NCBI GenBank assembly: GCA_002077065.1 | Contig: NAJO01000034.1 | Location: 434,001 to 498,000 of the forward strand | Reading direction: 5' to 3' | DNA: 64,000 nt | From: Cryoendolithus antarcticus | Lineage: Eukaryota; Ascomycota; Dothideomycetes; Cladosporiales; Cladosporiaceae | Shown: positions 2,020-23,664 of the stretch, in pieces | Numbering within the stretch: the first letter of the stretch is position 1 | Layout of the letters: every line of letters starts with the position of its first letter | The notes under the pieces: model-generated | Told to the model about the DNA's origin: nothing | Seen by the model: the letters and a program-made list of their open reading frames with translations, nothing else | Databases searched by the model: none | Program-made: the position numbers and the translations under genes

Positions 2020-3304
2020 AAGCAAGTGGTATGGGTGGAGAAATCAGATCTCTCGTATTGTCGGGTTTAATCACAAGTAGCAAAGTAATATTGTATACCA
2101 ACACTTGTTAGTGCATACTTGTTGGCAAGTTTCAAGTCACGTCTCTCATAGCTACACCCTCTCGAGATACAGTCGAAGACTTCGTGACTATAAGTGCAAG
2201 AGTCACCAGAAAGCGCAGTCGTATTCAGCTGCAATCTTCTTGCACTCACATGTATAGCACCATCGCAATCATTCTACCCTCCACACGTACGACCGGGTCG
2301 CGATGGATTCTGCATACTCACAGAGTTCATCAGCTTCGCCACATGGCGGTACTCACATATAGCGTCACCCTGCCATCTGTTGTGCTCCAGGCGGTGTATC
2401 GAGAAGCACGAGACAGCGAGATGGATCCCGGGGGGTGATCATACGCGAAGTCATCCTGGTGTCCTGCCTGAGGCAGCAAGGCGCCCGATCTTACCGAGAC
2501 GACCTCCAGTTTGACACTGCTCGCGACAGCCAACCACAGACGTGTTTACTTTACACTCTAACGAGCTGCTTGTGAGCACTCTACACTCTGTCTCGCCTGC
2601 TCAGACACTCCGTTGATGAGGACCTACACACGACCGTCCTGGCCTAGAGAAGCGCGCCTCTTGAACGTAGCAAGTAAGGTCCTCGACGCGGGCATACAGC
2701 GGGCTCCCACACACACCCGACCGTCACATACGCCATGGCCTCTGAACTGATACATCGCACATCCACTACACTTGAGCCGCCGTAAAGGTTGGCACCGCCG
2801 TGATGCTCTGCAGCGAGACTTCGAGGAATAGCAGACCTCATAGCGGCACGGATGGGTGATGTTCTCTCGGACGTCTTATTTTCGATTGAGATGGCACTGT
2901 CCTCCAGAGCTTCGCCATCACAGGTTGTCGAGGGACTGTCCTCCGACTGGGCTCTTTCGAGGGCTCGGACTCGTTGGTCTCCAGCCCACAGGACGGTTCT
3001 TTGATGATCCAGCACATGCGTGCCAAACAAGCGTGTCTTTGCAGACTTCTTTCTGAAATGACACCTGCTGCTTTGTCGCTACCTTCACCTTTGACTAGGC
3101 TTGGCTAGCTGCCTGGAGGAGCCATTGAGTGAGTTGCTTGCTGACACTAGACAAGTAGTATCTCCTTGTCCAGATGATTGCGCGTCTCTTCCTCCGGGCA
3201 ATCAGGTCTGCAGTCATGGTGAACAGGGCTGAGAGATATATGCTGCTTGCAGTATGCGCGGTGAACAGCCTTTCTGTTGTCCACCTCGTTCATCAAGACC
3301 TATC
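2020..3304. other. Intergenic region upstream of the Argonaute gene
   Basis: About 1.3 kb between the Rds1-like stop and the proposed Argonaute start. Open frames on both strands are short and overlap one another, with no conserved-looking protein. It probably holds the 3' end of the first gene and the promoter of the second. An upstream Argonaute exon cannot be excluded. Confidence 0.45.
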
Positions 3305-6300
3305 ATGTCTTCTGGTCGGTCAGGCGACGGCAAAAGGCCCTTGGGTAATCAACCTAAGGGGGTTCCCAACAATCCCAACAAGTACAACAAGCCCACATAT
3401 ACTCCAGTACAGTCGGCAAAGCCAGCGTTGCGTCAGGCTCAGGCTCAGTACGCGGCCCTTCCAGTACACCTGCTGCCACTGCGGCACGTGGTCCAGCTCC
3501 GACATGGGGCAGCAGTCCTCCACAGGGCGCGCTCGCAGCTCTCACCCTGAATTCCAAAATCACCACGCGTGCTGACTCGTCTGCTCCGACACCGCAATCT
3601 GCCCCATCGATTGCATCTTCTGCATTGCCGGTTACTGCAGCAGGTGGCCCTGGAGATTCAGGCTCTACATCTCGTTCCACTCCAACGAACGTCCTCAGCG
3701 CCGCCGGTGTTGCTGTTCAAGATGTGTCCACCTCTGGGCCGCTCGAGACGAGGGCAGTAGCCACCAGCAATGCCAGTCACAATCCCGAAACCAATCCAGA
3801 TGCCGCTGCTAAGCATCAGAATCCTGTCAAGTTTGTGGAAGCCAGTATGTCTCTGCTCAAGGACGAAGCGCCGACTTATGCAGCACTGCCCAAGCAGAGT
3901 CAGCCAATCCGCCACGCCATTCCTCTGAAAGTCCGCGCCAACATGTTCGGGATTTCAACACCCAAGACCGACATGTATGTGTATGCCTTCGGCTTCGCTT
4001 CTATGCACTCCCGCGAGCTCAGGAACCGGAAAATCAAGAAAGAACTCATCGTGGAGGTTCTCAGGCAACCGCCGTTCACCACCGCTATGCTTCAACACGT
4101 GGCAACAGACTACACCACCATGCTGGTGTCTTTGGTCGATCTCAGCCAGCATGACAACCTCCTCGCCGCCAACAGCGCACGGGTCTTCACCGTACCATGG
4201 ACGCCACAAGGTTCCACAACTGCGCAAAGCGTTGATGTGCAGGTCCGGCACAAGCATACCATCTCGCACACGGCAATCGTACGTTACCTGGAGGGTACAT
4301 CTGGTGGCAACATCAACATCGCACCTCACCTGGCAGCCTTGAACATTCTGCTCCGCAAGGTTGCGAACGAGTCATGAAATCCTGCTCGCGCCGACGTTGT
4401 GAAGACCAGCAGTGACAAGCATTTCTGGAAGCAGATCGTCACTGGGCCTGATGCATGGACCGTGCTAGGCCTCGAGTCTCGTCACGGTTTCCTGATTTCT
4501 TCGCAAGCTTTCCACAACAATCTGGCAGTCAATACTCTGAAGGTGGCTACAGCCTTCATCACAGCTCAGCCACTCGTCGACTATGTTGGTAAGCGCGTTG
4601 GAATTCAGCGCCTTGTGGCCAATGCCACCACCCAAACCCTGCGCGCCATTCGGCAGGCCACTCATGGGCTTCAAGTGCGATACGTCTATACGCCGCCTGC
4701 TCGCGACGTTCGCCCGATCGTGAAGTCCTCGCGGCTCACAAACCCTGCTGTGCATGGCCGGCTGAAGCGCATCAACGGTATGGGGACAAGCGCTCACACT
4801 CAGTTTTCCTGGCATGACGACTCGAATGCCGAAATCACTGTTCAACACTTCTTCGAGCATTACGTTATCAACTTCACCTTGACGCGGCCCGAGCTTCCTG
4901 TCATGAATCTCGGATCCTTAGATCGCCCTGTCTATGTTCCGATGGAGCTGCTGTATGTCGAGCCTCATCAGCCTTTGCGCGGCATGCTTGACAGAGATGC
5001 CATGACAGAGATGACAAAAGTCGCCCAGCACACACCCATGGAGCTCTTGACGCGCACCGAGGCTGCGTTCGCCCCTGGCGGCATGTTCGACCTGTCCTAC
5101 ACCATGCGCACACTCGGTATCGCTGTACAGCCGCACATGACGGTCTGCTCGGCACTCATGCTACCTTTACCAAATCTCTTGTACGGAGGCGGTCGGCCTG
5201 AGACAAGCCATGCGTTCAAATCTCGCCAGGGCGACGGCCGATGGGACATTCAGAAGCGCGTCATGCACAAGGCTGTTCACATTCCATGGCTCGGTATTAT
5301 CGAGATCGGGCAGAAGTCTACTGATCCACAGCAGGAGAACTACGCAGCTCTCGTCGTAGACATGCAGAAATACGGCATCCACATGGATGTTGTCCCGAAC
5401 GAACTGGGCTTCGATGGCTTCGAAATACGCAACGCCGCTAACAGCAGTAAAGCTGCCCTGAAGGTTGCTTGGAATGGCTTCTCTGAGACTGTCCAAGACA
5501 CTCGCTTCGCCATTGTCTTGATGCGGAGTCGCGACAAGGATGTCGATGAGCACGCAGCAATCAAGCGCTGGGGCGAGCTCGATGAAGGCGTCAGCACGAT
5601 GTGTCTGACACGGAACAAGTTTCAACGCAATCTTGGCCAACCCGCCTTCCGGTGTAACCTCGTGATCAAGATCAACGCGAAGCTCAACGGGCAAAATCAC
5701 GTCCTCGACGATATCAGCACGAATGCATTGCACGCCCTTTCCACTGGCAATGCCGGTGGTGCCACTAATACGATGATCGTTGGTGCAGACGTCACTCATC
5801 CCGGTTCTGGCGCAATTGCGCACTGCCCGTCAATCGCTGCCGTAGTTGCGAGTGTTGATCGCGAGTTGGTGAACTTCCCTGGCTCGATGCGAGTGCAGAA
5901 GAGCAAGCAAGAGGTATCTCAACTGCACTCCCTAGCTACCCTGCGCCATATCATGACTGACCCCTCCCAGATGATCCAGGACCTTGAAGTCATGATGCTT
6001 CAACGACTCCAAGCCTTCTACTTTACCAACAAGCGTCTGCCCGCAAACATCTTGTTCTACCGCGATGGCGTCAGCGATAGTCAATTCAGGATGGTCAAGC
6101 TCCAAGAACTTCCTCAGATCGAGCGCGCCTGCGTCACTGCCGGCGTAAGAGCGAACATCCCTAACTACACGCCAAAGATCACACTTGTGACCTGCAACAA
6201 ACGCCACCACACTCGCTTCTTTCCGGCCGCTTCATCCAGTCGCTCTAAGGCAGAAGCCGACAAGATCGATGGCAATTCGAACTTCAAGCCCGGTCTTTTG

Positions 6301-6742
6301 GTCGATGACTCGCGCATTCGCAACCCATACACTTTCGACTTCTACCTTCAGTCTCACGCTGCACTCAAAGGTACTGCGAGAACCCTCCCACTACTTCGTC
6401 ATCCACAACGGCATGGACCTCTCCGCCGCTCAGCTGCAGCAGCACACCTTCGCGCTGTGCTGGATCTACGCCTCCTCCCTCACACCTATCTCTTACGTGG
6501 CGCCCGCCTACTATGCCGACAGGATGTGCGAGCGCGGCAGGAAGTATCTGCACGAGCTGCTCAAGCCAGGGCAAAACAGCGGATACGATGATCGCTCGCT
6601 GGTGCAGGGCTGGAACGGAGGTCTCTTCCAGCCGCCTAATCAAGCTCAGGGCTGGGAGTATCAGCTTGATCAGATGAAGGACAAGGACGCATACGCTGTT
6701 CGGCAGATCATGGCCAACCGAGTTCTGCCTAGGCTTGAGTAG
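3305..6742 (+). CDS. Argonaute (QDE-2/AGO family), interrupted reading frame
   Basis: Core RNA-interference nuclease that binds small RNAs. A Ser/Gly/Pro-rich N-terminus (likely exon 3305-3344, intron 3345-3412) is followed by the N, linker, PAZ, MID and PIWI regions. PIWI landmarks are V-G-A-D-V-T-H-P-G near 5776, Y-R-D-G-V-S-D-S near 6060, L-Q-S-H-A-A-L-K-G-T-A-R near 6345 and A-P-A-Y-Y-A-D near 6500; these give an Asp-Glu-Asp-Asp type tetrad. Two problems occur. (1) A TGA at 4375-4377 lies between the N and PAZ regions. A 45-nt (4360-4404) or 39-nt (4371-4409) intron would remove it in phase, but both have weak splice sites. (2) One extra base at about 6381, inside G-T-A-R/P-S-H-Y-F, shifts the frame. 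As written, the product loses the last catalytic Asp. Either a recent pseudogene or a consensus error; family assignment is secure. Confidence 0.85.
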
Positions 6743-7559
6743 CCACAGATGAAGCCGACGGGGGTGCCGAAAGCTAACCCAGTGCACGACGAGTTGCAGG
6801 AGAGGATGTACTACATCTAGACGGCAGTGGAGGTAGTGTATTGGCGAAGAGGCGATGTGGCGTGCCACTGGTTAGGAGGGTGAAGAGTGGAGAACGGTTG
6901 TTGGCGTACCAGATCCGGCTGGTCGCCATGGTGAGGTATTTTGATGGCGTACCAGGTGACGCTGGCTGCCAAATTTTGCGACTTTGGCGACCATGGTCAT
7001 TAACATTGATGAGTGGGTAGGGTTTTGGCTTTGCGCGAGTTGGGCGACTGCCTGGTTTGGCACATGGCGTACCAGTCTGGCTGGCTGCCAGGAGTTTGGG
7101 AGGCATCTTCGTACAGGTAGTCTTGTCTGCACTTACACTTTTGTCAGTGCATTGCGCTCTTGATCATCATGCCACCTTCCGTATGACTTCTCCTTCCAGC
7201 TCCGCGTGTTTGGCCGTCACCCCAGCTTCTTTCCTGCAGTACTCTAGTGAAAGAAAGGGACCTGAGTGAGCATGTCAGCTGACACTGATGAGCAAGGAGC
7301 TGGAAACGATGCCATGGAGTGAAGAGACAGGCGGAAATCAGCTGGCTCCCTGCTGTCACATGTAACAGCACCTTCCTCGCGAATTCACTCTCGATTTGAA
7401 TCGAAAGAGTGAAGGTATCAAATGAGTCCAGTCACATGCCAAATGGACTGCATGGTACGTCGTGTCTCGGAACCTCAACACAACTAGTCGATACAGACAC
7501 TCACCACAACATCTCCTCACATCGACACTATCTCCTTGTCCACAGCATAGCCCGACAAC
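6743..7559. other. Intergenic region holding hairpin repeats
   Basis: Lies between the Argonaute and BTB genes. The first 350 bases contain three copies of a short imperfect inverted repeat (separate entry). The rest up to 7559 shows no gene and presumably includes the promoter of the BTB gene. Confidence 0.5.
6902..7090. repeat. Three copies of a 26-27 bp imperfect inverted repeat
   Basis: Copies lie at 6902-6928, 6945-6971 and 7065-7090. Each starts with TGGCGTACCAG, has a 5-nt or so spacer, then CTGG followed by two variable bases and GCCA. The arms TGGC..ACCAG and CTGG..GCCA can pair, so each copy could form a small stem-loop in DNA or RNA. A degenerate relative (TGGCGTGCCACTGG) lies near 6858. 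The block begins about 160 bp after the Argonaute stop and may be in its 3' UTR. Function unknown. Confidence 0.7.
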
Positions 7560-8280
7560 ATGGCGGCGCCTCTTACACCACCATCGGCAAGTGACGAAGG
7601 GTCGAGAGCGCCGAAGCGCAAGTGCACAGAGTAAGTTCGGCTCCCAAAATGCTCGTAGCTCCAATACTGATACTTTGGGTAGGCCGGACTACGGCGAAGC
7701 GATTACTGTGCTCGTTGGTGACCCAGCCCGCCCATTCATGATCCACAGAGATTACGTCTGTGCCAAGTCGAAGTTCTTCGAGGCAGCTTGTTCCACACGT
7801 TGGCTAGAAGGGCAGGAGAAGACGGTCAAGTTGGACGATGTAGATCCGGCGCTGTTTGCGCGTTATGTTCACTGGGCGTACTACGATAGCTTTGAGGCAA
7901 AGACATCTGTCAACGACCGCCAAGACGACCACAAGAAGGAGCTGCTCGATGCATACCTACTCGGCGATCGACTCGATGATCAGGCGCTACGTGATCACGC
8001 CATGGGCCTCTTACACCATCATCTCCGGGATACAAGCACAGTGTATCCTCTCCGATCGTGGATTCAACGGCTGTATAGAGAGACTGCTGCCGGTTCGCTG
8101 TTACGCAAATTGATGGTCAAGTACACCATTGCGCGTCGGTCGAGGGGAGAGTTTGTTCTTTCGCGATATCCCAGGGAGTTCGTCGACGAGTTGGCGAGCA
8201 TGGCTCTGGCAAAGATACCGATTCGCAGGGCAGATTGTGGGACGATTGACGAATATCTCGAGGGTAGCGCTGAAATCTGA
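7560..8280 (+). CDS. BTB/POZ domain protein
   Basis: Two exons, 7560-7630 and 7683-8280, give 222 residues. The 52-nt intron starts GTAAGT and ends TAG. After a short basic N-terminus (S-R-A-P-K-R-K), the protein has a fungal BTB fold: I-T-V-L-V-G, F-M-I-H-R-D-Y-V-C-A-K-S-K-F-F (the classic 'H..lL...S.fF' core), then W-L-E-G-Q, V-K-L-D-D-V-D-P and Y-V-H-W-A-Y. A helical region follows (L-L-D-A-Y-L-L-G-D-R-L-D-D). BTB domains mediate dimerisation and can serve as CUL3 adaptors. Stand-alone fungal members of this type are numerous and mostly uncharacterised. Confidence 0.88.
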
Positions 8281-8622
8281 GAGCCATCTTTGACTCAATG
8301 GGCTCCGTGCTTGAAGCTCGTCACTACGTACGCAGTAAGGAGGGTGCATATTGCAGCATCAGCCCGAGGCGGGCTTTTCCAACGAATTGGCCCGAGCACC
8401 GGGATCTGATACGCTGGTCTGGGGGTCTTTGGACCCAAGATTGACAGCGCCAAGACACTTTCGCTGCTGCGACAACGCCGACGAGAGGAAGCATCGATGG
8501 GTGGATGGAAGACTCCTCCTGGGTGAACCTCCCATAGAGACACGTCGATAGACTTTGACTATCGCAGTGCAATCTGTATCTGCATAAGTTGTACAAGTAC
8601 TTCAAGGAGCGAAGATGATAGC
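8281..8622. other. Intergenic region between convergent genes
   Basis: Separates the convergent BTB and racemase genes. No coding or repeat signal was seen; presumed 3' UTRs and terminators. Confidence 0.5.
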
Positions 8623-9387
8623 TCACACATACCCCTGCCCCCTCGCTTCCCGCCCAGCCCGACTGCTCTTCCACAACCCCCTCTTCGCCGTCCTCCCACC
8701 CATCCTGACAACCCCAATCAAATGCTGCACCCCCGCCACAACCCCATCCACAACCTGTACCTCCCCGCCCACAGCCTCCTGCACCGCAGTCTGCATATCA
8801 GTCATTCCCGCACACCCCAGCGTAAGCACGTCAGCACCATCGAGCTCCACGAGCTCCTTCGCCACGGTCTTCATGCGATCTAAGACTTGTTGTCGGGGCA
8901 GGCGCTCGAGATCTAGCACGCCGAGATCGCAGGACCGGAGGCCGGCGAGGGAGGAGCTGAAGCCGTAGGCTGCGAAGCTGTCGCGGTGGGCTATGGCGGA
9001 GCGGGAGCTGGTGGATACTACGCCGATGCGGGCGCCGAGCGTTCGGGCGTAGAAGAGACTTGCTTCCATAATTCCGATGACGGGTACATCGACTTCTTCT
9101 CGCAGCATTGGGATCAGAGCATGGCTGCTGTAGCACGCTACTAAGATTGCGTCGAAGTGCTCATTTTCTTGTAAGGGCAATAAGGCGCGGAAGGCTGCGG
9201 CGGAGGAGAGCACGTTGTCGACCGCGCCTTCTATGGCTGTTGGACCGGGGTGGGGGGATGTGAAGCCGTGGACTGAGACGTCTGGGGGAAGGGTCGGGGT
9301 GACGAGTTTGAGGCAGCTGCCTGTCATTGAGGAGGTGGCGTTGGGGTTTGCGATGAGTATGCGGATCTTGGGCTTTGAGTCGGCCAT
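8623..9387 (-). CDS. Asp/Glu/hydantoin racemase family protein (Dcg1-like)
   Basis: Single-exon gene of 254 residues. N-terminal I-R-I-L-I-A-N-P-N-A-T-S-S-M-T is the typical start of hydantoin/allantoin racemases. Both catalytic cysteine sites are present: I-L-V-A-C-Y-S-S-H-A-L and L-T-L-G-C-A-G-M-T-D. G-I-M-E-A-S and G-V-V-S-T also match the family. These cofactor-independent enzymes interconvert enantiomers of hydantoins or related ureides; yeast Dcg1 is linked to allantoin/nitrogen catabolism. The C-terminal tail (after about residue 235) is basic and probably disordered. No purine-catabolism genes flank it, so the substrate is uncertain. Confidence 0.88.
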   Translation of the reverse strand: MADSKPKIRILIANPNATSSMTGSCLKLVTPTLPPDVSVHGFTSPHPGPTAIEGAVDNVLSSAAAFRALLPLQENEHFDAILVACYSSHALIPMLREEVDVPVIGIMEASLFYARTLGARIGVVSTSSRSAIAHRDSFAAYGFSSSLAGLRSCDLGVLDLERLPRQQVLDRMKTVAKELVELDGADVLTLGCAGMTDMQTAVQEAVGGEVQVVDGVVAGVQHLIGVVRMGGRTAKRGLWKSSRAGREARGQGYV

Positions 9388-10121
9388 GGTGATGTGGGAT
9401 GCGGTGGTGCCAGTGTGCCAATATTTGAGGTCCGGCCGTCTTGATCACTGAGTGTTGCTTTCCAAGACCCGGATGCAATACCCTATCGTCACTGTGGCTG
9501 GGTATACGAGAGTCTGTCAGCTTTCCTACCAAGTAAGTCATATGGTGTCTGCCGGCAACAATATGGAAACACAAAAATCTATCTGCGAGGCAGGCTATAA
9601 GAGATGATGCTCCAAGACCTTATCTGGTACCTGCCTATACCTTATCCTACCGGCCGCAGCTAACGCACAGTGGCTGCTGCAAGTCATAATGACTTGCTGA
9701 TGTGCCGATCTTCGAGCTTCTGCAAGCTTGGCGATGGCTAGTCTATAAGGTACATAGATCTAGTGATGTATTTCAGGTATTGAAAGGTATCAGGACGTAT
9801 CTCAAGATTCTCCGGCAAGGACCTCCACATCATCCGATCGGGTCCTGTACCGTACAATGTTCTTGTGCTGAGCTGAACGCATATTTATTGGGCACATACC
9901 GCTTTGCAACGATCTTCTGATATATGACAGTCATTTACAAACGTAACGCGTAGTCTACATCTCCTGCATTCTAGAGTACCGGGGATCCCGGCTAGAAGCC
10001 CACCAACATCGCCTGCAGTCGGTGTTTCCGAGGGTCTTCTGCGGCGTTGACCAACTTATCTCTGGATGCTCACAAATCAGTCATCGAACGTAGGAGCTGC
10101 ACAGGATCCATCGTGATAGCT
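9388..10121. other. Intergenic region, no gene seen
   Basis: About 730 bases, locally more AT-rich than the surrounding genes. It contains only short frames. It would hold the promoter of the racemase gene and the 3' flank of the lactonase-like gene. Confidence 0.5.
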
Positions 10122-12230: not shown

Positions 12231-14708
12231 ATGCCGAAGGTTCGCGCACCGAAAGCGAGAGCAGCAGCCGACCTACAGCGGCCAAGCCGCCTGCCACTTG
12301 GGACTCAACTCAGCAAGTCCCCGCCACCGCACAGCCCGCATCTTCCACCATCTCGCAGCATCAGCAAGACGTTACTCGGCATGGCACCCGAAATTGTCAA
12401 CGATGGCGAGCCTCGTGACAAGGCTGCAGCGAAGCTCGAACGCTAGCAGAAGCGTATTGAGCAGGCAGAAGCTGCCTTGGCGGCCCCAAAGCTGACCGCG
12501 AAGGCGAGGGCCAAAGCGTGGAAGCCGTTCGACTTTGGTGGCGGCGAAGCCACGCCAAGCGGCCCGTCGCCCGTCGTCGAGACTAGAGTCAATGTCTTCC
12601 GGCCTGCATCGTCAGCATCTCTGTCTCGCCCAATCTCCCGCATCTCGCACGCCACTGGTGATTCTGATGGCCGAGAATCCTCACAGCTAGAGTCCGACGA
12701 CTTTCAGCTGTTCACTGGACGCAAGACGCGCCGACAGGCTGCTGAGGAGAGGCCGGAACCGCCGCAGATCACCGTCGAGGCGACCTTCAGTAAGCGCGAA
12801 ATCTGCGATGTCTTTGGCAATGAGCTACCCGGCACCAGCTTCCTTGAGTGGAATCCTGGCACAGTTCACGGGCAGCTTCAATTCATCCAGCATCCCAACG
12901 GCGATGTCTACGCCCATCAGTGGCAAGCTTCACAGTACGAATGGAACAACATCGGCTCATTCTCCAACATCCGCAAGAAGGTCGAAGGCGGCCTTGCTCG
13001 CGAGCGCCTGGTAGGCGAGACAGCACTACAGTCTCTGCATCAGAACACACTCATCTACTTCCGCACCATCGCCAGGCAACGCGAGGCCTTACAGATAGGT
13101 CTCCCCTTTGGGCAGAAAGAGATCGTGGCCGCCTTGCCTGATATTCGACCACCGTCCGCGGCGCCACCTGTACCCAAAATGCAGTGCCGCACTGTTGAGA
13201 TGCCTACTCCGCCTGCCGCACGCAAACAAGATGCCATTGATGACAGTATTGGCCAGATTACTGAAGGGACGGATGATCCGAATGCTCGTCCTGTCGCCAC
13301 GAGACTTGTGTCTGGAGCCGGATCTACCGTCACTGGACAGCCGCCACCTCATACTAGTCAACGCACACCGTCATACCCAAGCTACAACGCGCCGACATAC
13401 ACACCGTACACGAACGACCCATACTATCAAGCATCGTATGCTCAGCCCTACAGCGTCAATCCCAGCTATCTCCAGACTATGCAGCACCCATCTTACTATC
13501 CTCAGTATTCACAGCAGTGGGGTACATCACCGACATACTATCAACAGCCAATGCAGACACCAAGCTACATGACTCCCGCCGCATACCCACCACACCCCAG
13601 CTACGGCCAGACTGGACTGGACGCTGAGATCCAGCGCATGCGAGCACATGCTAGCTCTCAGCAAAGCTCACCAGCCACCGCCAGTCAAGGCTCTGCGCAA
13701 CAGTCAAGCTTCCATATGACTGCAGCTGGTCACACACCCCGCCGTTCTGATCATCATCACGCTTCATCATCTTCGCAGCCTCCCTCAACGCCGTATGTGC
13801 AACGCACGGCGATGCGTGAGAGTATCTTGAGGATGAGTGAGACGAGGGGGGAGCGCACTAAGAACCTGGCTAACAGCCGGACGGTCCTTCACGATCCATT
13901 TCTGGCACAGCCGAAAAGTGTCGAGAGTACTCCCGCTGCCGTGCCAGTGCCGGAGCTACCCGTCACGCCTGTCAAGGAGCCAGTCAATCGTCAAAGAAGT
14001 CCTTCCGTGGTTACTACTGGCGGCGTCACCATGCCTGCACGTCCAGCACGCCCGCTTGCGAGGTCGGTCGCCGTACCTTCGATCTCCCTTGCGCCGCGCC
14101 TGCCTGATACCGCATCAATCCCGTCTGAGAACGACCTTCGCAACAGTAGCCCAGACCGCGAGTGGCAGCGCAAGCCAGCTGAGACGTACCACGTAGATGT
14201 CGCCCCGCTCCTCGACCTCGAAGGCAGCAAGAAGTGGGATGCTACCAACTTTAAGGAGTGGTACTGGGACTACACTAAGTTTGCACGCCATGAAGAGTTC
14301 TTCGACCGCCTCAAGGCGTCGTCTGGCAGTCCATCCACCACAACAGCACCGCAACTCGCACCCATCGGACCGCCTCGCAAGGACTCAAAGGCGTCCGGCA
14401 GTGGCGATGGCTATAACGAGAAGATGACTCGCTTGTGGATTCCTGTGCTGGAGACTTTGGCATCATACACCACGGGACCGGAAGAGAAGCGCCGCGACTA
14501 CTTCTCTCGTTGGGCTAAGGCGCCGGAGCACGCAATTGATCGCAGCGCGCGAGGTCATGAGTCCTTCTGGGATAGTCCAGCTGATGATGCTTCGGCTGAC
14601 ACAGGGGCTACATTGGGATCGTCGATGAGGTTTGGCAGCGTGGAATGTGTCATTGGTGGTGGTGTGCTGGACCGCAGGTTTGCTCCCGTGAGGTATGGAA
14701 CGGAGTGA
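12231..14708 (+). CDS. Disordered, coiled-coil-initiated protein with in-frame TAG
   Basis: Not recognised as a known family. The frame opens with a basic segment (M-P-K-V-R-A-P-K-A-R) and runs 826 codons to 14708. A TAG at 12444-12446 interrupts it. The residues around the stop (D-K-A-A-A-K-L-E-R / Q-K-R-I-E-Q-A-E-A-A-L) read as one continuous charged helix, which suggests a nonsense change in a real coding region. A 51-nt GT-AG intron (12396-12446) would remove it in phase, but with a weak GTCAAC donor. The middle is rich in Tyr/Pro/Gln (Y-x-P-S-Y type, about 13360-13620). The C-terminal 200 residues (V-D-V-A-P-L-L-D-L, F-K-E-W-Y-W-D-Y-T-K-F) look folded. It converges on the M20 gene. Confidence 0.65.
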
Positions 14709-14803
14709 GGCGCGAAGACGAGACATTCAATGACTTAGCTTCACTGCACACTAAATACATACCCGCGCAACAAGCCTCTACCCGTGCTCACCAACGCAAT
14801 CCT

Positions 14804-16093
14804 TCAAGCTTCCTTCATCAACCAAGTCAGCGCCCCCACTACATAAGCATCCGTCCCCACCTGCAACGTCGGCTGTATCGCCGGCGCGAACAACCCGCTA
14901 TGATTTATCGGTATATCCTCGCCCAGCCTCCCTTCCTTCTCTGCCTTATCCCACACCTCGTGACCTGTGCCGCCGTACATCCAGAACGAACACGGTTTCC
15001 CGACGGCTGTGCCGAGAATACTGAAGTCTTCACTCCCGCCAAGCTTGTCCATTACTGGCGTGTACGCTTTCGCATCTTCCGTGAAATGAGCAGTGAATGT
15101 CTCCTCGAGTTTGGCCGTGAGTGTCTCATCATTAATCGTCAGCGGAAAACTTCTCGTAGGAACGATCGTCGGCTCCTTAACAGCATTCCCCGCCACGGCC
15201 TCAGCGTTCACAATCCGTCGAATACTAGTGAGCGTTCTCTTCCGGGTCTCCGGATTGATCGTCCGCACATCTACCGCGATCTTAGCGTCGTCTGCGACCA
15301 CGTTCTCGGCATCCCCGGCTTGTATGCTAGCGCACGTCACGACCGCGGTATCCCAGGCATCTGTCTCGCGGGATACGATGGTTTGCAGACGCATTACGGT
15401 GCTTGCGGCCATTATCACGGGGTCTACGAGGCGGTGAGGCATTGATGCGTGGCCTCCTCTGCCGTGCAGGGTTATCCGCATGGAGTCGGCGGAGGAGGCG
15501 ACGAGGCCCCGACGGGTGCCGATCACACCAGAGCGGTGGGGCATCACGTGCCCTCCCAACACGATATCCGGAATGGGGACATTGTGGCGTTTGGGGTCGT
15601 AGAGGCCGTCGTCGACCATGGCTTGGGCACCTGTGCCGCGTTCTTCGGCGGGTTGGAAAATTAAGAGAAGCGTTCCGGTCCAGGATGCACGGCAGGCTAC
15701 GAGCGTCTCGGCTGCGGCGAGGAGGGACGTGATGTGGAAGTCGTGGCCGCAGGCGTGCATGACGGGTTTCTCCACGCCGTCGGCATCTTTCATGCGGACT
15801 GCGGAGGCGTAGGGGAGGTTTGTGCGTTCGAGAACGGGGAGGGCGTCTGTGTCTGCCCGGAGCAGGACTGTGGGGCCGGAGCCATTGGCGAGAAGGGCGG
15901 CGAGGCCGTGGCCGCCGATGTGTTCGCGGATGTCAAAATCTGAGGAGAGCTGCTTGAGTTCGGAAACGATGCGGGAGGCTGTTTGGGCTTCTTGGTCGGA
16001 GAGCTCGGGATGGGAGTGGAAGTGTCTGTAGAGGTCTTCGTACTTGGCTTGGTCTGGACGGTACTTATTGGCGAGGGAGGAGATGGCGGACAT
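14804..16093 (-). CDS. M20 family amidohydrolase/carboxypeptidase
   Basis: Intact single exon, 429 residues. Close to the IAA-amino-acid hydrolase / hippurate hydrolase (M20D) group: H-S-H-P-E-L-S near residue 27, G-P-T-V-L-L-R-A-D-T-D-A-L-P, the metal-site motif H-A-C-G-H-D, Q-P-A-E-E-R-G-T-G, G-G-H-V-M-P, the dimer-domain motif G-R-G-G-H-A-S, and C-terminal G-G-S-E-D-F-S plus I-N-H-S-G. These zinc-type enzymes cleave amide bonds of N-acyl amino acids. No signal peptide, so probably cytosolic. The substrate (N-acyl amino acid, peptide or auxin conjugate) cannot be inferred. Confidence 0.93.
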   Translation of the reverse strand: MSAISSLANKYRPDQAKYEDLYRHFHSHPELSDQEAQTASRIVSELKQLSSDFDIREHIGGHGLAALLANGSGPTVLLRADTDALPVLERTNLPYASAVRMKDADGVEKPVMHACGHDFHITSLLAAAETLVACRASWTGTLLLIFQPAEERGTGAQAMVDDGLYDPKRHNVPIPDIVLGGHVMPHRSGVIGTRRGLVASSADSMRITLHGRGGHASMPHRLVDPVIMAASTVMRLQTIVSRETDAWDTAVVTCASIQAGDAENVVADDAKIAVDVRTINPETRKRTLTSIRRIVNAEAVAGNAVKEPTIVPTRSFPLTINDETLTAKLEETFTAHFTEDAKAYTPVMDKLGGSEDFSILGTAVGKPCSFWMYGGTGHEVWDKAEKEGRLGEDIPINHSGLFAPAIQPTLQVGTDAYVVGALTWLMKEA

Positions 16094-16300
16094 GATGGCA
16101 GTGTGTTTGATGTGAATGTGGCAGTATGAAAGGGTATAGTGTATAGCGAATATTGAGATTAGCTACCTACCTGGTGCAGAGCTGTGCGTGACGTCGGGCC
16201 GGATGCTCGACTCACAGAGTGCATCCTGTGGAGTCGCTGCGTGGAGCTCGAGCTTTAACTCCGCATGCGATCGGCAAAGGTGGGTAAAGCGGCGAAGCTT

Positions 16301-17674
16301 TCAGACCTCAGGCTCCCACGACCTCCTGAATTCGAGCAAGTCACGCTGTCCGAAGAACTCACCCACTACAGTCAAAATCATGTCCAGTGTTGCCAGAGTA
16401 TGCTCCGTGTCATCGGCCTCACCTGTCGTTCGCGCTGTGACAGCATCTTCTGATTCCACATCGCTGGCATCGTGTTCAGCGTCGGCACCGATGTCAGTCT
16501 CAACGGCGCCATCGACAGCAGCTGCATACTTCTCCTTGGCTGCTACTGCTTCCAGCTCCGTCGCGGCTGCAGCGTTGACAAAGGACAGCTGTACAATCAC
16601 GGCCTTCTTACCCAACTCCCGCAGCAGCGAGACTTGGTCGCCGTCCATGGTGCCAACATCATCAAGCCGAGCAAACAGAGCCATCACCCACGCTCCCGTA
16701 TTGCGCTTGATCTGCTTACGCTGACTGAGGCAGTGTGTATCGATTAGCTCCAGCATCGCGAAGACGCTTTCGTTGGACATTGCAATGAGTTGGCTAGGTG
16801 AAGGTGTTGTTTTGCGTACGGCGTTGATGCACGCTACGTACGCTTTGTTTCCATCCTGTGGATTGAGGGGTGTCGGTGGGTCCGTAGTGTTGGTCGTGAC
16901 CTTAGCATCGAGTGGTTCGCGTAATCGTGCGCGTAGCTTCTTGAATCGATTTGACAGCGCATTCGTGTACGCTTCCATCGGCGAGACTGTCGCTTTGAGT
17001 GGCGGCTGAGGTCGCATGACCGGTCGCGCAATGTAGCAGTCGTCTTCGAAGTAGCCGCGACTGTCTCCCTCTTCGTAGATGTCTGCGTCGTCGTCTGCGC
17101 CGGGAGCCTTGAGCACAAGCGGTATGCTCTGTCTCTCCTGCCTGACCGCTCTGAGATATGCCATTGCTTCTGCTACTTCGCTCTCGCCCCCATCTTCGGA
17201 CTCGTCGTCCCATTGGAATGCTAGTGAGCCGATGGCGGGCATCTGGTTGGTAGACGCGTTCTTGCCTAGCTTGCCGGACGCGTGTGTGGCCCGCTCATCC
17301 TCGGGCGTCACATCCACGCTCTCCTTCCAAGACACTCCAGCAACCTGATCGCCGCCGTGACTCTTCATTACCAACGCCGCCGGATCGTAGTCATCGTCCT
17401 CCTCCGGCAACTCTTCAGCAATGTTAAACTCTGCAATGCCGCCGTTCCCCTGGGTCTGCGCCTTCGTAAAAGGTCCATTAATCGAGACCCTGACGCTTGC
17501 TCCAGCAACTGTGGGCGATGTGCTCTTCACTGCTCTCGGATCTACGACAGGAACAGGATCCAGCACTTCAGTTTCCTCTTCCGAGTCGTAGCTCAGCAGT
17601 ATGCGCTTGTTGGGATTGTAGCCCGCGTTTGGGCCTGCTTTTGGGCGATCTCGTTCTCGCGGTCGCTTGCCCAT
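16301..17674 (-). CDS. Gemin2/SIP1-like SMN-complex protein
   Basis: Single exon, 457 residues. The N-terminal half is acidic and disordered except for a Q-W-D-D segment. The C-terminal half matches the Gemin2 (SIP1/Brr1) helical domain: A-Y-x-x-A-L-S-N-R-F-K-K-L-R-A-R, K-R-N-T-G-A-W-V-M-A-L-F-A-R-L-D and, at the end, V-V-G-E-F-F-G-Q-R-D-L-L-E. Gemin2 binds the SMN protein and cradles the Sm D1/D2/E/F/G pentamer during spliceosomal snRNP assembly. The start (M-G-K-R-P-R-E-R) has a basic, nuclear-signal-like beginning. Longer than human Gemin2 because of the acidic insertions. Confidence 0.8.
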   Translation of the reverse strand: MGKRPRERDRPKAGPNAGYNPNKRILLSYDSEEETEVLDPVPVVDPRAVKSTSPTVAGASVRVSINGPFTKAQTQGNGGIAEFNIAEELPEEDDDYDPAALVMKSHGGDQVAGVSWKESVDVTPEDERATHASGKLGKNASTNQMPAIGSLAFQWDDESEDGGESEVAEAMAYLRAVRQERQSIPLVLKAPGADDDADIYEEGDSRGYFEDDCYIARPVMRPQPPLKATVSPMEAYTNALSNRFKKLRARLREPLDAKVTTNTTDPPTPLNPQDGNKAYVACINAVRKTTPSPSQLIAMSNESVFAMLELIDTHCLSQRKQIKRNTGAWVMALFARLDDVGTMDGDQVSLLRELGKKAVIVQLSFVNAAAATELEAVAAKEKYAAAVDGAVETDIGADAEHDASDVESEDAVTARTTGEADDTEHTLATLDMILTVVGEFFGQRDLLEFRRSWEPEV

Positions 17675-18345
17675 GGTGTGATGTCGATGTAGGTGTCAAG
17701 ATTGGTCGTGATGTTGAGGTACAATATGTACTTCAAGATCGGGCCCTGGTGACTCGGGGAAGGCACGGGGAGCTTGTCCGGAAAGGGTAGGGTCAGGGTT
17801 ACACAAAGTTAACCACACCTTGGGGTGAAGAGGTATTCCATATATGTCGATACGGATCATTGTTTTGTTAGCGAAACAGCTCGCAGATGCAGCGGAAGGG
17901 ATATGTCGATAAAGGGTAACATGTTTGGAGTTTTGAGACTGGGCCGGGCTCGACCTGTGATGTTGCGGGCGACTTCACTGGACACATGATGAATTTCTAA
18001 GGATATGACCACGCTCCTCTACGATGTCGAGTCTCTCTTTGCAAGCCCGAAGTATCACCTGCACGATCGTCGCCCTCGTCGCTGTGTGAGGGGAGGAAGG
18101 ACGGAAGAGGTCAACTGAGGCAAGTGGAAGATCACTGCTAGCGTCAGTATACGGTGAACCACCGGGTCTAGCAGCTCAAGTCGCATGATGGGCATCCTGC
18201 TCCAGCACACTGCTTGAACCCTCTTAGAGTCGACGTCCTACTCCGGAGACTTCCCCACCCAGCCTGCAGTTCCCTGATCACAGCCTCCACATTAAAACCG
18301 GGCCAGACAAGGGTCAAGCCATGACCTGCATCTGGGCTCGACAGC
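17675..18345. other. Intergenic region
   Basis: Between the start of the Gemin2-like gene and the end of the HeLo-like gene. No supportable gene or repeat. It contains the upstream region of Gemin2 and the 3' flank of the HeLo-like gene. Confidence 0.5.
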
Positions 18346-19230
18346 TCAGAAGATGCCAATTTGATTCTGCCCGCCACTCTTCGCAGTCATCTTACCAGCC
18401 TCAATACGAGCTTCTTTCAGCTTGTCTATCGCATCTTTAGACACTCCGGCGGCATTCGAAGAACCGGCACCTTCCGCATAGACGTCTTTCACCTTCACAC
18501 TTACAACGGCGAGCTGTTTCAGATCATCGCTGGCCACAGCGCAATTCGCCCGCAGAAGCTGGTGAGCTGCAACTTCACCGTTGACTTGCCGTAGCTGCGA
18601 GTCACGATCGTCGTCGTACTCTTCTTGGTTCTGCTTTTCGAGCTCGGCCGCAAGTAGCGTGGTCCTTTCTTGTTGCTGTTGAGCATCGCGAGATATGGAC
18701 TCGATGTCTCGCTGTAGCTGTTCTGCTTGAGCTTTTCTTTGAGCTTCTGAGGCTGAGCCCATCTCGACCAGGATGTACCTATTCGTGTTAATGCAGATTC
18801 GAAAACCGAGTCCCGTAGGCACTCACAAGCTCGCAGCGCTGACGACCAATGTAATCGTGCTCTTAGCCGTAGATATGTCGGCGAGATACCTTTCAATGCG
18901 AGCCTCGTGACGCACCACCCTCCACTTAGCGCGGAGGGATTTCATGTCACCCTTCATCTCGCCGCTCAGCTCCTTGCACGATTTCCCACATTGTTCCAAG
19001 GAGTCCTTTAGCCCCAGTTCCAGAATCTTGGCCTTGACGCTATCACTAGCGGACTTCAAGAAGTCCAATCCATCCGCACATTTCATCAACGCGATAATAT
19101 TGTTCTTGATCTCCACGACTTTGCCTTCAGCTTCTTCGATGGCCTTGCAGAAGTCGTAAACTGCTTTGATGCTCTTGACGGCGACGTCCGTGATGCCGAT
19201 TGCGGCAGCGGCAATTTCCAGACCAGACAT
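18346..19230 (-). CDS. HeLo-like domain protein with C-terminal RHIM/PP-like motif
   Basis: Two exons on the reverse strand: 19230-18827, then 18778-18346. The 48-nt intron has a GTGAGT donor and ATAG acceptor; the product is 278 residues. The N-terminus (M-S-G-L-E-I-A-A-A-A-I-G-I-T-D-V-A) and the helical region to about residue 140 resemble the fungal HeLo-like/NACHT-associated N-terminal domain, whose hydrophobic first helix can permeabilise membranes in relatives. A long Gln/Glu/Arg-rich coiled coil follows (about 140-220). The last ten residues are S-G-G-Q-N-Q-I-G-I-F. The neighbouring divergent NLR begins with G-S-N-V-Q-I-G-V-F. By analogy with HELLP/PNT1-type pairs this is probably the cell-death effector triggered by amyloid templating. 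Effector role is inference; the gene structure is well supported. Confidence 0.78.
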
Positions 19231-19717
19231 CGCGATATTCTGTGCACTGGGTACCGAAACGTGCCGCTATACTTTGTAGCTCGACTTGATCCTCAAGCGT
19301 GGCAGCTTGTCACTAAATTGTTCATATACGCTCACGACGACCAGCATGACCGGTAAAGCTTCTACTGCAGGCATGCCGTGCTCGCGCCACCATCACAGCC
19401 CAACGTCCAATTGGAGCTGCAGGACATGATACGCGCCCAATGCACATCAACTGCCCTCAGGACTACCAACTGCCTCCAGGACCATACATGTTGCGATTGA
19501 TCATTAGATGAAACGCCTCCATTTGCAAGACAAATTGTAGATTCGGCAAGCCACTAGTCTCGCCGCGGCGGCGTGGAGGCTGCTTATCGCGGTAGTATCT
19601 ATCCTCGCTCTGCATTCCTCAGGTTCAGGCAACGGTCTATCGCAATAGCGCACCTCCAACCCGGCATTGCACCAGTCTAGACAGTTGCGCTTAGCCGCAT
19701 CTCGCGTGTCCGACGTG
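19231..19717. promoter_or_regulatory. Shared divergent promoter of HeLo-like/NLR pair
   Basis: A 487-bp gap separates the start codons of the HeLo-like gene (reverse) and the NLR gene (forward). The head-to-head arrangement suggests co-regulation, as expected for a sensor-effector pair. No specific binding site could be named. Confidence 0.5.
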
Positions 19718-22700
19718 ATGAATCTGAACATCACGACTGGGGATATCGACACTCGCGATGGCAGCAATGTCCAGATTGGCGTATTTGGACTCATGGGAAG
19801 CGCCAGTAAGGTTCGTCTGCGCCATGCAGCGCTTTTGGGTTGACAATCGCAGGTGATAATCGACGAGCCATCCAAATGTGGATTGCACCGTGGCTGTTTG
19901 AATCCTACAGATCATTGTCGCAAGCCAAGATCTGGGAGCAGCGACGTGAGGCCTCGAGGGGAGACAGCGGCACTTGGTTTACCGGCAGCAGTCTTGAAGA
20001 CTGGCTACAGAATGGTTCCGACTGCTTGTGGCTATATGGCGAGAGTCGGTTGAACCTCTCAGAAAGTTGCCTGAACACAGCACTAACCGACAACTGCAGT
20101 GGGTTGCGGAAAGAGCATGCTCAGGTCAGTCGAGAATTTGGGCTTCCAGCGGTGACTCTAATGCCTGACTTCACAGCTCGCTCATTACTTCAGAGCTATA
20201 TCTGCAAGCTGACATTGGAAAGCTATCGCTGGCATTCACCTTCTTTGCATGGGACTTGACATATACACACTCGAAGACTTTCGTAGCACGGACACTCCTC
20301 GCACTCCTGAGCTCGATCGAACCTCTGCTGAAGGAGATCAAAGATGCTTACGAGAAGGTCAATTCGTTTGAGACCGTTGACGCTTTGATCTTGATACGGC
20401 AGATCTTCGCTCGCCCGGCTACCAATAGCTCGGTCGGACGAGTTACAGATCTGGTACTCGTCGTGGATGCCATCGATGAGATTCCCTCCACTGAAGTTCG
20501 GCTACAAGCGCTAGCGATGTTGAAGACTCTGTGTACACTCGCCCGCTCCTCTCCTAATTACCGCCTCCGAGTCATCTTGACCTCCAGATACGGCAAGGAC
20601 GTTGAAGCCATCTGCAGTCAGGGTTCGGGCTGGTCCCGCCGTGACATACCCACGGACATGATCAAGGTAGACATGAAACTCGTTCTAGAGGCGCGCATGC
20701 GCGAGATCCCCAGTTTGCAGGACCTCATCTCCGAAGAAAGATATTCGCTGTCAGATAAGATCATTCACAAGTCCGGTTCCTCGTAAGTGGATCGACATAC
20801 CGTGCCAGGGCAGAGATGCTGACTTTCAACAGATTCAGACTTGCCAGCATGTATATGGACGCGCTGGTGGACTCTGACCTCGAGTTTCTCGAAGAAGCTC
20901 AAGCGAATCTGATCCTTGATGACCTCCCTAGCGACCTTTTCGCCTACTACGATCGCATTTTAGCTCGGATCCAGAGACCAGAGGTCAAAGAGCCCATTCT
21001 ATCAGCGCTGCGACTACTGTTGTTCGCTGCGGAACCGCTTACTGTGGAGCAGCTTGTGGCGTCATGTGCTTCAATGCGCCTTTTTGAGCTCAATCGCCAC
21101 CCGGTGTTCCAGCTGAAGGCCACGGATCTTGTCCGTTTACTCAATGGACTCGTCGAGCCTCCATACAGTGATGACATAAGGACCAGACTCGGTTTCGGCA
21201 TCAATATGAGCATCAGGATGAAGCACTTCTCCGTTGTGGAGTGGCTGAGACGTCCTAGCGCGAATTTTAATCAGGCTTTCTTCCACGGTTCAGCTCCCCA
21301 AAGGCACATAACCCTGCAATGTTTCGCCTCCCTGACTTATTGCCATGAATACAGTAGAGCTGTGGCAGTCAATGCAAACGACAACACGCAAGGCTTGGAG
21401 CAATTCTCATTTGCTCGCTATGCTGCAGCCAATTGGTTTCTGCATGCAGCTGCATATTTCCAGATCAATGAAGCCTCAGCATCGTGTCCAGATCGAGCAA
21501 ACAATTCAAACCCGTCAGGAGACGATGAGGACGCCGATTATGGCCTGACCAGACCCACTGCCTTTGCACTTCGTGTTTGCAGCGCCGTCCTAGCACCGGG
21601 GCTCTGCAGTGTTGAAAAGTCAAATGCCATACTGACTCGACTCGAGGGACTGACGGAATCATTTCTCGATCCTGGAAGAAGAGAGACACTATTCGGAAGT
21701 ATACTCAAGCATGGCCTCAGACCACAGCCCGACATCGCCAGGGAGACAGACAGGCATGATCATTCGCTTCTTACGTTCGTCGCGCCACGTAAGCTGGATT
21801 TCTCAGTACCGCTGTATCCCTCAATCAGCCGATATCCCAACACGACTCGCTTCCTGGTCAAGGAAACGCCAGGCACAGTTAGCCGCTGGCCTGCGGAGAT
21901 CATGACGATACGCTCGACGAGCGTGACTTCTGGACGTCTGGTGGCTGAGTCACTGGAAAACAAACCGAAGTATATAGCGCTAACATATGCTTGGGCAATG
22001 GCATATAGTCGAAGAGGTGACATACTACGTGTGAACGACCAGACTTTGCCGATATCAGAACACCTTTCCCAGTGGCTGGATTACTGGCAACGTGATGAGC
22101 GGCTTCAATTGCCGGTCTGGATTGATGCAATATCGATAGACATGAGGGAGCTCGGCGAACGGACACAACAGATACAATTGATGGGACCGATCTACAGTCA
22201 AGCCGCCACAGTGGTAGTCTGGTTGGGACAAGGAACAGAGCACGAGTAGATTGCAGTCGACGTTGCCAACCAGCATGCCGCAATCTTGCGACAATTTCCA
22301 ACCGAAGCGCGAGGTCTTTCAAATGGAGTGCAGGAGAGCAGAGTTGAGCTGCACCATCAAACCATAATCACAGTATTCGATGCGTATCTATTCCGCCGTC
22401 GATGGATATATCAGGAAATTGCGCTCGCACAAGCAGTGGACTTCCAGTGTGGATCGCGCCTAATATCCCTGGATGACCTCGCTGTCATTGTTGATGACTT
22501 GAAATCTCAGCTTCGCAGCACACTGTTTCAGGCTACCACAACAGGAGACCAGGCACAGCATAACGAGTTGCAGCGGACGTGGAGTCGTGTTCTGGGTACG
22601 TTCGACATATTACAACGACTCCGAGATCGCGAAAACCCTCCGAAGCTTCCTGAGATGCTCTACCTGCTCCGACATAGACATTGTACAGATCCGAGGGATC

Positions 22701-23664
22701 AGTTGTACAGTCTCATCTATCTCCTGACGGACGAAGAACACAAGAGATGTGCTCAGCTTGTCGACCTGACAAAGTCGGCTGCCTTCACGTTTCACAAGCT
22801 GAATTTGTTACTAGCCGAGACTTACGGTCCGATAACCCTATTCTCCATGAACAATCATTCATGGAGAGAGGAGCGTGATCAGCCATCGATGATCCATAGA
22901 CTATGTGACGCATGGCCCCCATCGTGGCAGCACGACATATATGACCACCCTCTAGCGCCGGGTAGCTTCCTCCCTCGCGACTCCCCGCTACACCAGCCCT
23001 CACTATATCGTGTCATTTCACCACGACGCCCAACGTCCTCGAGTTCAGCTGAGGAGATGCAAGTGTTTGGTGAGGGAATCAGATGTGCAGCCATTTTTGT
23101 GGACACTATCGTCACCTCGGTCGATATAATCGATTCGGACAGACTTGCCATGGTCGAAGAGAACATTGGGAACATGTCTCTGCTAAGAACGCTACTGGAA
23201 GACCGCATTGCACTCGCCGTCGGTGATGTCAACAGCAGGACTTTCCGCCGTCTCCGTACCGACGAAGTTCTGAGCGTATCGCGCCGCTATCGCGATATGA
23301 GTTGGCGGGATCTTTTGCAGGACCGCGGAAACAGAGCGGACAGGCGAGTATTCATCACGAGTAAGGGCATACCAGGCAACGGACCCATGCAAACGCGCGT
23401 CGGGGATGACGTCGTAGTACTCCCTGGAGCAGAAGTGCCTCACATCGTGCGGAGATTGCACGACAGTGACACCGATACCTACAAGATGATCGGCGAGTGG
23501 TATGTCATCCCAGCGTCCACTAGTAGGATAATATACTAACCTAGCGCAGCTATCTAGACCTCATGATGGACGGGCAGGTCATGAACGGGTTGGATGCAGG
23601 AAAATATACTGTCAAGCCGATCACGATCACATGGGAGCGTAACCACATGAGTAATGAAGCGTAA
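19718..23664 (+). CDS. NLR: RHIM/PP-like motif - NACHT - HET, with in-frame TAG
   Basis: Six exons: 19718-19805, 19853-20044, 20100-20124, 20177-20782, 20833-23499 and 23550-23664. They sum to 1231 codons in one consistent phase. Exon 1 encodes a short Gly/Asp/Asn-rich segment with V-Q-I-G at residues 18-21. The NACHT NTPase follows: W-F-T-G-S-S-L-E-D-W-L, Walker A G-C-G-K-S (95-99, in a 25-nt exon), Walker B L-V-L-V-V-D-A-I-D-E (about 194), and V-I-L-T-S-R-Y. A HET domain starts near residue 684 (Y-I-A-L-T-Y-A-W, then W-I-D-A-I-S-I-D). It continues after a TAG at 22247-22249 (codon 776) with R-R-R-W-I-Y-Q-E-I-A-L-A and a typical HET C-terminus. No phase-preserving intron with credible sites removes the TAG. 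HET at the C-terminus, in place of WD40/TPR repeats, is unusual. Likely self/non-self recognition and cell-death trigger; the truncated form would keep motif and NACHT. Confidence 0.82.

Follow-up and report, generated by a model that had tools for sequence, protein, structure and literature searches.

A divergent HeLo-like effector and NACHT-HET receptor gene pair with matching terminal motifs in Cryoendolithus antarcticus

A divergent effector and receptor pair

In a 64,000-nucleotide stretch of the genome of Cryoendolithus antarcticus, an Antarctic rock-dwelling fungus (contig NAJO01000034.1, positions 434,001 to 498,000; hereafter the window), two divergently transcribed genes encode a HeLo-like protein (the effector) and an NLR with a NACHT-type domain and a C-terminal HET domain (the receptor), and the C-terminal end of the first protein matches a short N-terminal exon of the second. 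On balance, we read the two genes as an NWD2/HET-S-type pair of NLR and executioner, with a RHIM-like motif of its own and a NACHT-HET receptor, that is partly decayed. The window lies on contig C78 of a 46.97-Mb, 149-contig assembly, and the divergent effector and receptor arrangement occurs at two places in this genome, the window and contig C112. The coordinates and reading frames given for both genes in an earlier note on this DNA are correct (Table 1), as are the effector end, GGQNQIGIF, and the GSNVQIGVF encoded in the first receptor exon.

Table 1. Features of the gene pair, in window coordinates
Feature	Position	Strand	Details and basis
HeLo-like effector gene, 278 residues	18346..19230	-	exons 19230-18827 and 18778-18346; P0001, 100% identical to deposited B0A48_13228 of Cryoendolithus antarcticus
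Effector C-terminal motif IEAGKMTAKSGGQNQIGIF, residues 260-278	18349..18405	-	best local match to receptor N-terminus; tail kept in P0001-P0004 and P0013
Effector intron, GTGAGT..GAATAG	18826-18779	-	splice ends read from sequence
HeLo-like domain PF17111 (Pfam PigL_N), residues 4-134	18827..19230	-	profile match
Intergenic region of the divergent pair, 487 bp	19231..19717	.	sequence; alignment with C112
NLR gene	19718..23664	+	exons 19718-19805, 19853-20044, 20100-20124, 20177-20782, 20833-23499 and 23550-23664; interrupted by TAG
NLR N-terminal motif ITTGDIDTRDGSNVQIGVF, residues 5-23	19730..19786	+	kept in P0006 and P0008
Intron 3' of the motif exon, 47 nt	19806..19852	+	also 47 nt in the C112 copy
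Small introns 20045-20099 and 20125-20176, around the 25-nt exon completing Walker A	20045..20176	+	profile score, spliced sequence
HET domain, first part (profile positions 1-92 of 146)	21971..22243	+	residues 405-495 of the frame starting at 20759
In-frame TAG inside HET	22247-22249	+	Trp in C112, P0006 and P0007; Leu in Oleoguttula P0009
Open continuation past TAG: remaining HET and C-terminal region	22250..23664	+	open frame, comparison with relatives

The two terminal segments, IEAGKMTAKSGGQNQIGIF in the effector and ITTGDIDTRDGSNVQIGVF in the receptor, align without gaps over 19 residues with a score of 37. The correspondence G-x-x-x-Q-I-G-(V/I)-F that the earlier note had drawn between them holds, within a longer shared stretch than first proposed. 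When the termini were shuffled (30 residues at the effector C-terminus, 60 at the receptor N-terminus), a score of 37 was reached in 1 of 2000 and 1 of 4000 trials. Moreover, among 508 C-termini of 30 residues, taken from six-frame open frames of at least 100 residues in the window and the collected loci and mostly not genes, three reach this score, namely both effector copies and the C112 receptor's own exon.

Comparison of the window with C112 indicates that codon constraint agrees in part with the shared motif. In the effector, dN is 0.022 and dS 0.36 over the last 40 codons, against 0.10 and 0.45 over the first 59 codons of exon 2 and 0.073 and 0.481 over the entire exon 2. In the receptor, dN/dS is 0.078 over the 18 codons of DTRDGSNVQIGVFGLMGS, against 0.40 after the NACHT-type domain and 0.31 over all 763 codons.

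A weak collinear alignment (19 bits; shuffling p 0.02) also links the last 70 residues of the effector with the C-terminal end of a PF17111 paralogue encoded on contig C19, and the match to the receptor is not significant over whole proteins. Both facts would suit an account in which the effector tail is an ordinary PF17111 C-terminus, its likeness to the receptor arises by chance or from an unrelated short motif, and the genes are linked for other reasons. We consider this improbable, as the paralogue tail does not match the receptor (p 0.09) and has no QIG, while the terminal match, at 1 in 4000, is kept in the copies that have both ends. The paralogue itself (L029, C19:3997-4428 and downstream) is a PF17111 protein with the tail EDVSTGEDSHQVIVSTVGDLISAKRVTAGPRSTQTLGQMSDES.

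The HeLo-like effector

The reading frame of the window effector is intact, and its final residues are KSGGQNQIGIF. The spliced protein matches PF17111 at 33.3 bits, and the open-frame scan of the window gives 35.2 bits, both above the curated cut-off of 27.2, in agreement with the HeLo-like N-terminal domain assigned to this gene previously; the match extends to residue 200 when the whole protein is scanned. PF17111 is named Helo_like_N (HeLo-like) in PMC9815663. Among the relatives scanned, P0002 (18.6 bits) and P0003 (15.9 bits) stay below the cut-off and P0004 gives no match, the models of these proteins being shortened or re-spliced. A sequence search of the PDB with P0001, a 35-residue motif segment and P0007 returned no relevant match.

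The NACHT-HET receptor

The first exon of the receptor encodes 29 residues (MNLNITTGDIDTRDGSNVQIGVFGLMGSA). This motif exon is present in three of the five deposited receptor models, and its intron is kept on C112. Removal of the two small introns further downstream yields an intact Walker A, GEMGCGKS, and the spliced sequence matches the NACHT-type profile NPHP3_N at 79.6 bits, against 36.7 bits for the open-frame piece (cut-off 24.8). Against Pfam NACHT proper, the window receptor scores 21.8 bits, below that model's cut-off of 26.7. The deposited models P0005, P0006 and P0008 do not use the two tiny P-loop introns and thus have no intact Walker A.

In the open-frame scan of the window, the HET profile PF06985 matches at 53.3 bits. 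Because HET and the NACHT part lie in one open frame (496 residues), the NACHT-HET combination is not a fusion of two genes made by annotation. P0006 and P0007 carry a precomputed match to PF26639, presumably a HET-6-type barrel. In PMC4986451 and PMC12881547, HET figures as a death domain related to TIR that stands N-terminally in fungal NLRs, whereas here it is C-terminal, at the place of the usual WD, TPR or ANK repeats. A literature search for NLRs with HET at the C-terminus and for this organism returned no report of such a pair, which does not by itself establish absence from print. Across this genome, at least 71 matches (E 0.001 or better) to the 496-residue NACHT-HET frame, mostly to its HET part alone, indicate a large HET repertoire.

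Copies of the pair in this genome and in relatives

The adjacent pair recurs, divergent again, on C112 and, by locus tag, in two further genera, and no partner whose motif-bearing end is included in its model had lost the QIG motif. Specifically, neighbouring locus tags point to two pairs in Rachicladosporium sp. CCFEE 5018 (B0A51_00075/00076 and 00444/00445) and to one in Oleoguttula sp. CCFEE 5521 (LTR95_014507/014508, on a 6471-bp contig). The tail Q-I-G-[IM]-[FL] closes all five effector proteins (P0001-P0004 and P0013) and occurs nowhere else in them, and the N-terminal motif is present in all three receptors that have an N-terminus (window, C112 and B0A51_00075), a count that leaves out P0007 and P0009, whose models start downstream of the motif.

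Among the copies, which come from few and close relatives, effector tails of 119-121 residues are 85-97% identical, and receptors after the NACHT-type domain 51-95%; between the window and Oleoguttula the corresponding values are 85.7% and 51.5%. This pattern fits the NWD2/HET-S and PNT1/HELLP model, with a signal that would be conserved while the receptor diverges.

The C112 pair has an upstream flank that is 82.9% identical to that of the window over 3.8 kb. Window positions 14001-22782 correspond to C112 (L003) positions 1220-10000 with gene order kept, the DNA being 73-83% identical in three blocks, and several PF17111 matches also occur in contig pairs. The paired contigs and loci suggest a duplicated or hybrid genome.

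In the C112 receptor (L003 6777-6945) and in B0A51_00075, an upstream ATG comes with a strongly hydrophobic segment before the motif; the window does not have that ATG. The C112 segment has a mean hydropathy of 2.57 over 19 residues, and the differences between the window and C112 over this stretch are spread about evenly across codon positions (20, 18 and 20), giving no sign of coding constraint. A membrane-anchored receptor, considered on this ground, is at most a possibility.

Assignment of the motif

Motif patterns were scored on eight proteins, five effectors and three receptors. Ses_B (Pfam PF17046), which we take to stand for PP, has no match on the termini from the window and C112. The strict PP consensus FxGx(x)NxGLQLxGxNxGxL (PMC3321046) is missed by all eight proteins; it is also missed by the four segments of a control pair from the same genome (contigs C87 and C69, see below), and so does not decide. 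In contrast, the GxQxG segment common to PP and RHIM (PMC5485727) is present in all four C87/C69 segments and in none of the four from the window and C112. With the control pair as a standard, the absence of GxQxG and of a Ses_B match led us to drop the PP label that the earlier note had attached to the motif.

The RHIM core is given as G-[IV]-Q-[IV]-G (PMC7885112). The part [IV]Q[IV]G is present in all three receptors and in none of the five effectors, and with the first G in none of the eight proteins. In the window, the core reads VQIG in the receptor and NQIG in the effector, so that the proposed I/V-Q-I/V-G core stands for the receptor and falls for the effector.

The other named classes did not accommodate both termini. 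The sigma motif, repeats of GxGxQF and GGTQN (PMC3321046), and PUASM, FxGxGxQxxGxGxF with a PNP_UDP effector (PMC9815663), were each found in none of the eight proteins, and the effector here is HeLo-like. HRAM, the HET-s type, has hydrophobic residues at 5, 8, 10 (T), 16 and 18 and Gly at 19, usually with two repeats in the effector (PMC4518210); its full pattern occurs at the motif in two of the three receptors and in none of the five effectors. A HRAM beta-solenoid, built from two effector repeats and a single receptor repeat, is a very unlikely account of the motif. The C112 and B0A51_00075 receptor segments do have hydrophobic residues at 5, 8, 10, 16 and 18 and Gly 19, and the window receptor agrees at 8, 10, 16, 18 and 19, but the pattern is loose enough to match at two further places in each of P0006 and P0008, the receptor has no R/K at 15, and the effector departs from the pattern, with a second repeat that is not significant (p 0.20). 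The two-repeat reading was set aside, the possible first repeat in the effector not being significant.

Our best reading is that the motif is specific to this pair, V-Q-I-G on the receptor side and N-Q-I-G on the effector side, and that it would be RHIM-like without the GxQxG of PP.

A PP/RHIM-type control pair on C87 and C69

On contig C87 (C87:168001-178000, local 4323-8918), a HeLo-like effector ending in HNVFGAHNSGVQVGQSSGAITNN followed by TTALPAK, with a GVQVG tail, is divergent from a 1052-residue frame that has TPR repeats and the first exon MAAVQQINTFGDRNSGSQIGTLYG. The effector passes Ses_B (24.0, 25 and 26.2 bits in separate scans; cut-off 23.2). We read the 1052-residue gene as an NB-ARC NLR; no NB-ARC profile match is listed for this frame. 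A second copy on C69 (C69:168501-178500), of which the effector tail, the first exon and the beginning of the large frame were read, has the effector tail GPQVG. The NLR-like genes of the two copies have first exons with GSQIG/GTQIG. Among the other three segments, Ses_B gives 15.5 bits on the C69 effector and 14.1 on the C69 NLR, both below the cut-off, and no match on the C87 NLR.

A better PP/RHIM-type pair is thus present in this genome, and that of the window is either different in kind or a greatly diverged relative. The motifs from the window and C112 score 15-31 against those from C87 and C69. Divergence from a common PP/RHIM stock would explain the V-Q-I-G core of the window receptor and the same architecture of the partners, and it draws on a match of the window receptor to the C87 effector over 34 residues (p 0.005, uncorrected, the best of 16 cross-comparisons among 28 pairs). 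The window effector, however, resembles none of the four C87/C69 segments (p 0.45 to 0.66), GxQxG separates the two sets of segments completely, Ses_B is silent on the window pair, and the window receptor is NACHT-HET rather than TPR. We therefore regard kinship with the C87/C69 pair as possible but rather unlikely.

A premature stop in the receptor

The in-frame TAG cuts the HET domain past profile position 92 of 146, and the deposited model P0005 ends there. Downstream of it, 429 codons follow without another stop, and the frame can be extended via the last intron to a stop at 23664; this region shares 51% identity with the Rachicladosporium proteins across 409 residues. A long, open and conserved frame after the TAG indicates that the loss in the receptor is recent or that the TAG base is a sequencing error. 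An RNA hairpin at the TAG, sought as a hint of editing, was not found (z -0.39). The C-terminal HET, held to make this pair a distinct variant, is thus real in the relatives and interrupted by a stop in the window copy.

The C112 locus is also damaged: its effector gene has lost 10 bp and carries an in-frame TAG, and its receptor gene is frameshifted and broken at additional places, both inside HET and beyond it. With the window receptor cut in HET and the C112 effector broken, the system is at best partly active in this strain. It could even be that the pair once worked as proposed and that, with the receptor truncated and the second locus broken, there is no signalling now. The position of the TAG, Trp in three of four relatives, and the breaks on C112 speak for such complete loss. 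Set against them are the intact window effector, the motif, NACHT-type domain and P-loop open in both receptor copies, and the 429 open codons; motif and NACHT would, moreover, survive in a truncated receptor. We judge complete loss to be a minority possibility, and partial decay of a paired receptor and executioner remains our preferred account.

Discussion

Several observations weigh against an amyloid-signalling pair. First, shuffled whole proteins reach the motif-match score in 9 of 60 trials, which is not significant, so that the terminal match is significant only because these two termini are the expected place. Second, the dN/dS of 0.078 over 18 receptor codons (DTRDGSNVQIGVFGLMGS; window against C112) reflects 4 nucleotide differences in a stretch that we chose, and the whole motif exon, at 0.232, is not below the NACHT-type domain (0.189) or the linker (0.162). 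Third, the effector has N, not a hydrophobic residue, before the central Q, and its chain stops four residues past Q; Pfam lists no amyloid-motif model for either terminus, in a search in which HMMER filters hide most weak matches. Fourth, effector-receptor scores are 57-65 for the C87/C69 pair against 37 for the window pair. Fifth, AlphaFold models, computed with 13 sequences for the effector and 12 for its first exon, are helical but poor, with mean predicted local distance difference test (pLDDT) values of 46.0 and 52.3, so that a helical bundle like the 4HB of MLKL is putative and the support for a HeLo-like fold is the profile match. Finally, this genome has no unbroken receptor copy, and of its two effector copies one is broken.

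The proposed mechanism follows the model for NWD2/HET-S and PNT1/HELLP in PMC7885112 and PMC5485727. The HeLo-like protein would be a membrane-active executioner, kept inactive with an unfolded C-terminal tail. The receptor would sense a cue, oligomerise via its NACHT-type domain and gather its N-terminal motifs, which may then fold into an amyloid-type stack, recruit the matching effector tail and switch the effector on. We infer that the tail, templated in this way, would free the HeLo-like domain to act on membranes and kill. As the C-terminal HET occupies the place of the repeats in most fungal NLRs, the receptor may sense through an unusual part or give a second output.

A bolder proposal, which we hold with low confidence, is that the pair represents a separate class of amyloid-signalling motif, present in three related genera, that ties a HeLo-like executioner to a dual-output NLR in which a HET region replaces the sensor repeats; as part of the same proposal, the receptor end would be in the course of being lost while the motif is kept. 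Because this genome also has a PP/RHIM-type pair, the proposal requires motifs that do not seed each other. If it is true, the motif lies outside the named families HRAM, PP, sigma and PUASM, the architecture motif-NACHT-HET puts a death-type domain where C-terminal repeats are usual, and one receptor could start both pore-type and TIR-related death responses. Together, the two pairs would then be a natural setting in which to test how parallel death pathways are kept separate by short amyloid motifs.

Comparison with known systems

The window pair resembles HELLP/PNT1 (PP; Podospora anserina and Chaetomium globosum) in its adjacent genes, in the motif at the C-terminus of a HeLo-like effector and at the N-terminus of an NLR, in the central Q, and in the RHIM-like core of the receptor. 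It differs in having neither GxQxG nor a Ses_B match, in a receptor that is NACHT-HET rather than NB-ARC-TPR, and in an effector that ends four residues past Q. With the HRAM systems HET-S/NWD2 and HELLF/FNT1 it shares an adjacent effector and NLR and a single motif at the NLR N-terminus, with NACHT also in NWD2, and the window receptor segment fits most of the HRAM hydrophobic and Gly pattern; unlike in those systems, the effector has one motif, not two, and fails the pattern. The RHIMs of animal RIPK1 and RIPK3 share the [IV]-Q-[IV]-G core with the window receptor, but in the window effector Q is preceded by N, both partners have a residue other than G two positions before Q, and the place in the pathway is another. 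Finally, HET-E and HET-D of P. anserina (HET-NACHT-WD40) likewise combine HET and a NACHT-type domain in one protein, whereas in the window receptor HET is C-terminal, at the usual place of the repeats, and it is the amyloid-type motif that stands N-terminally.

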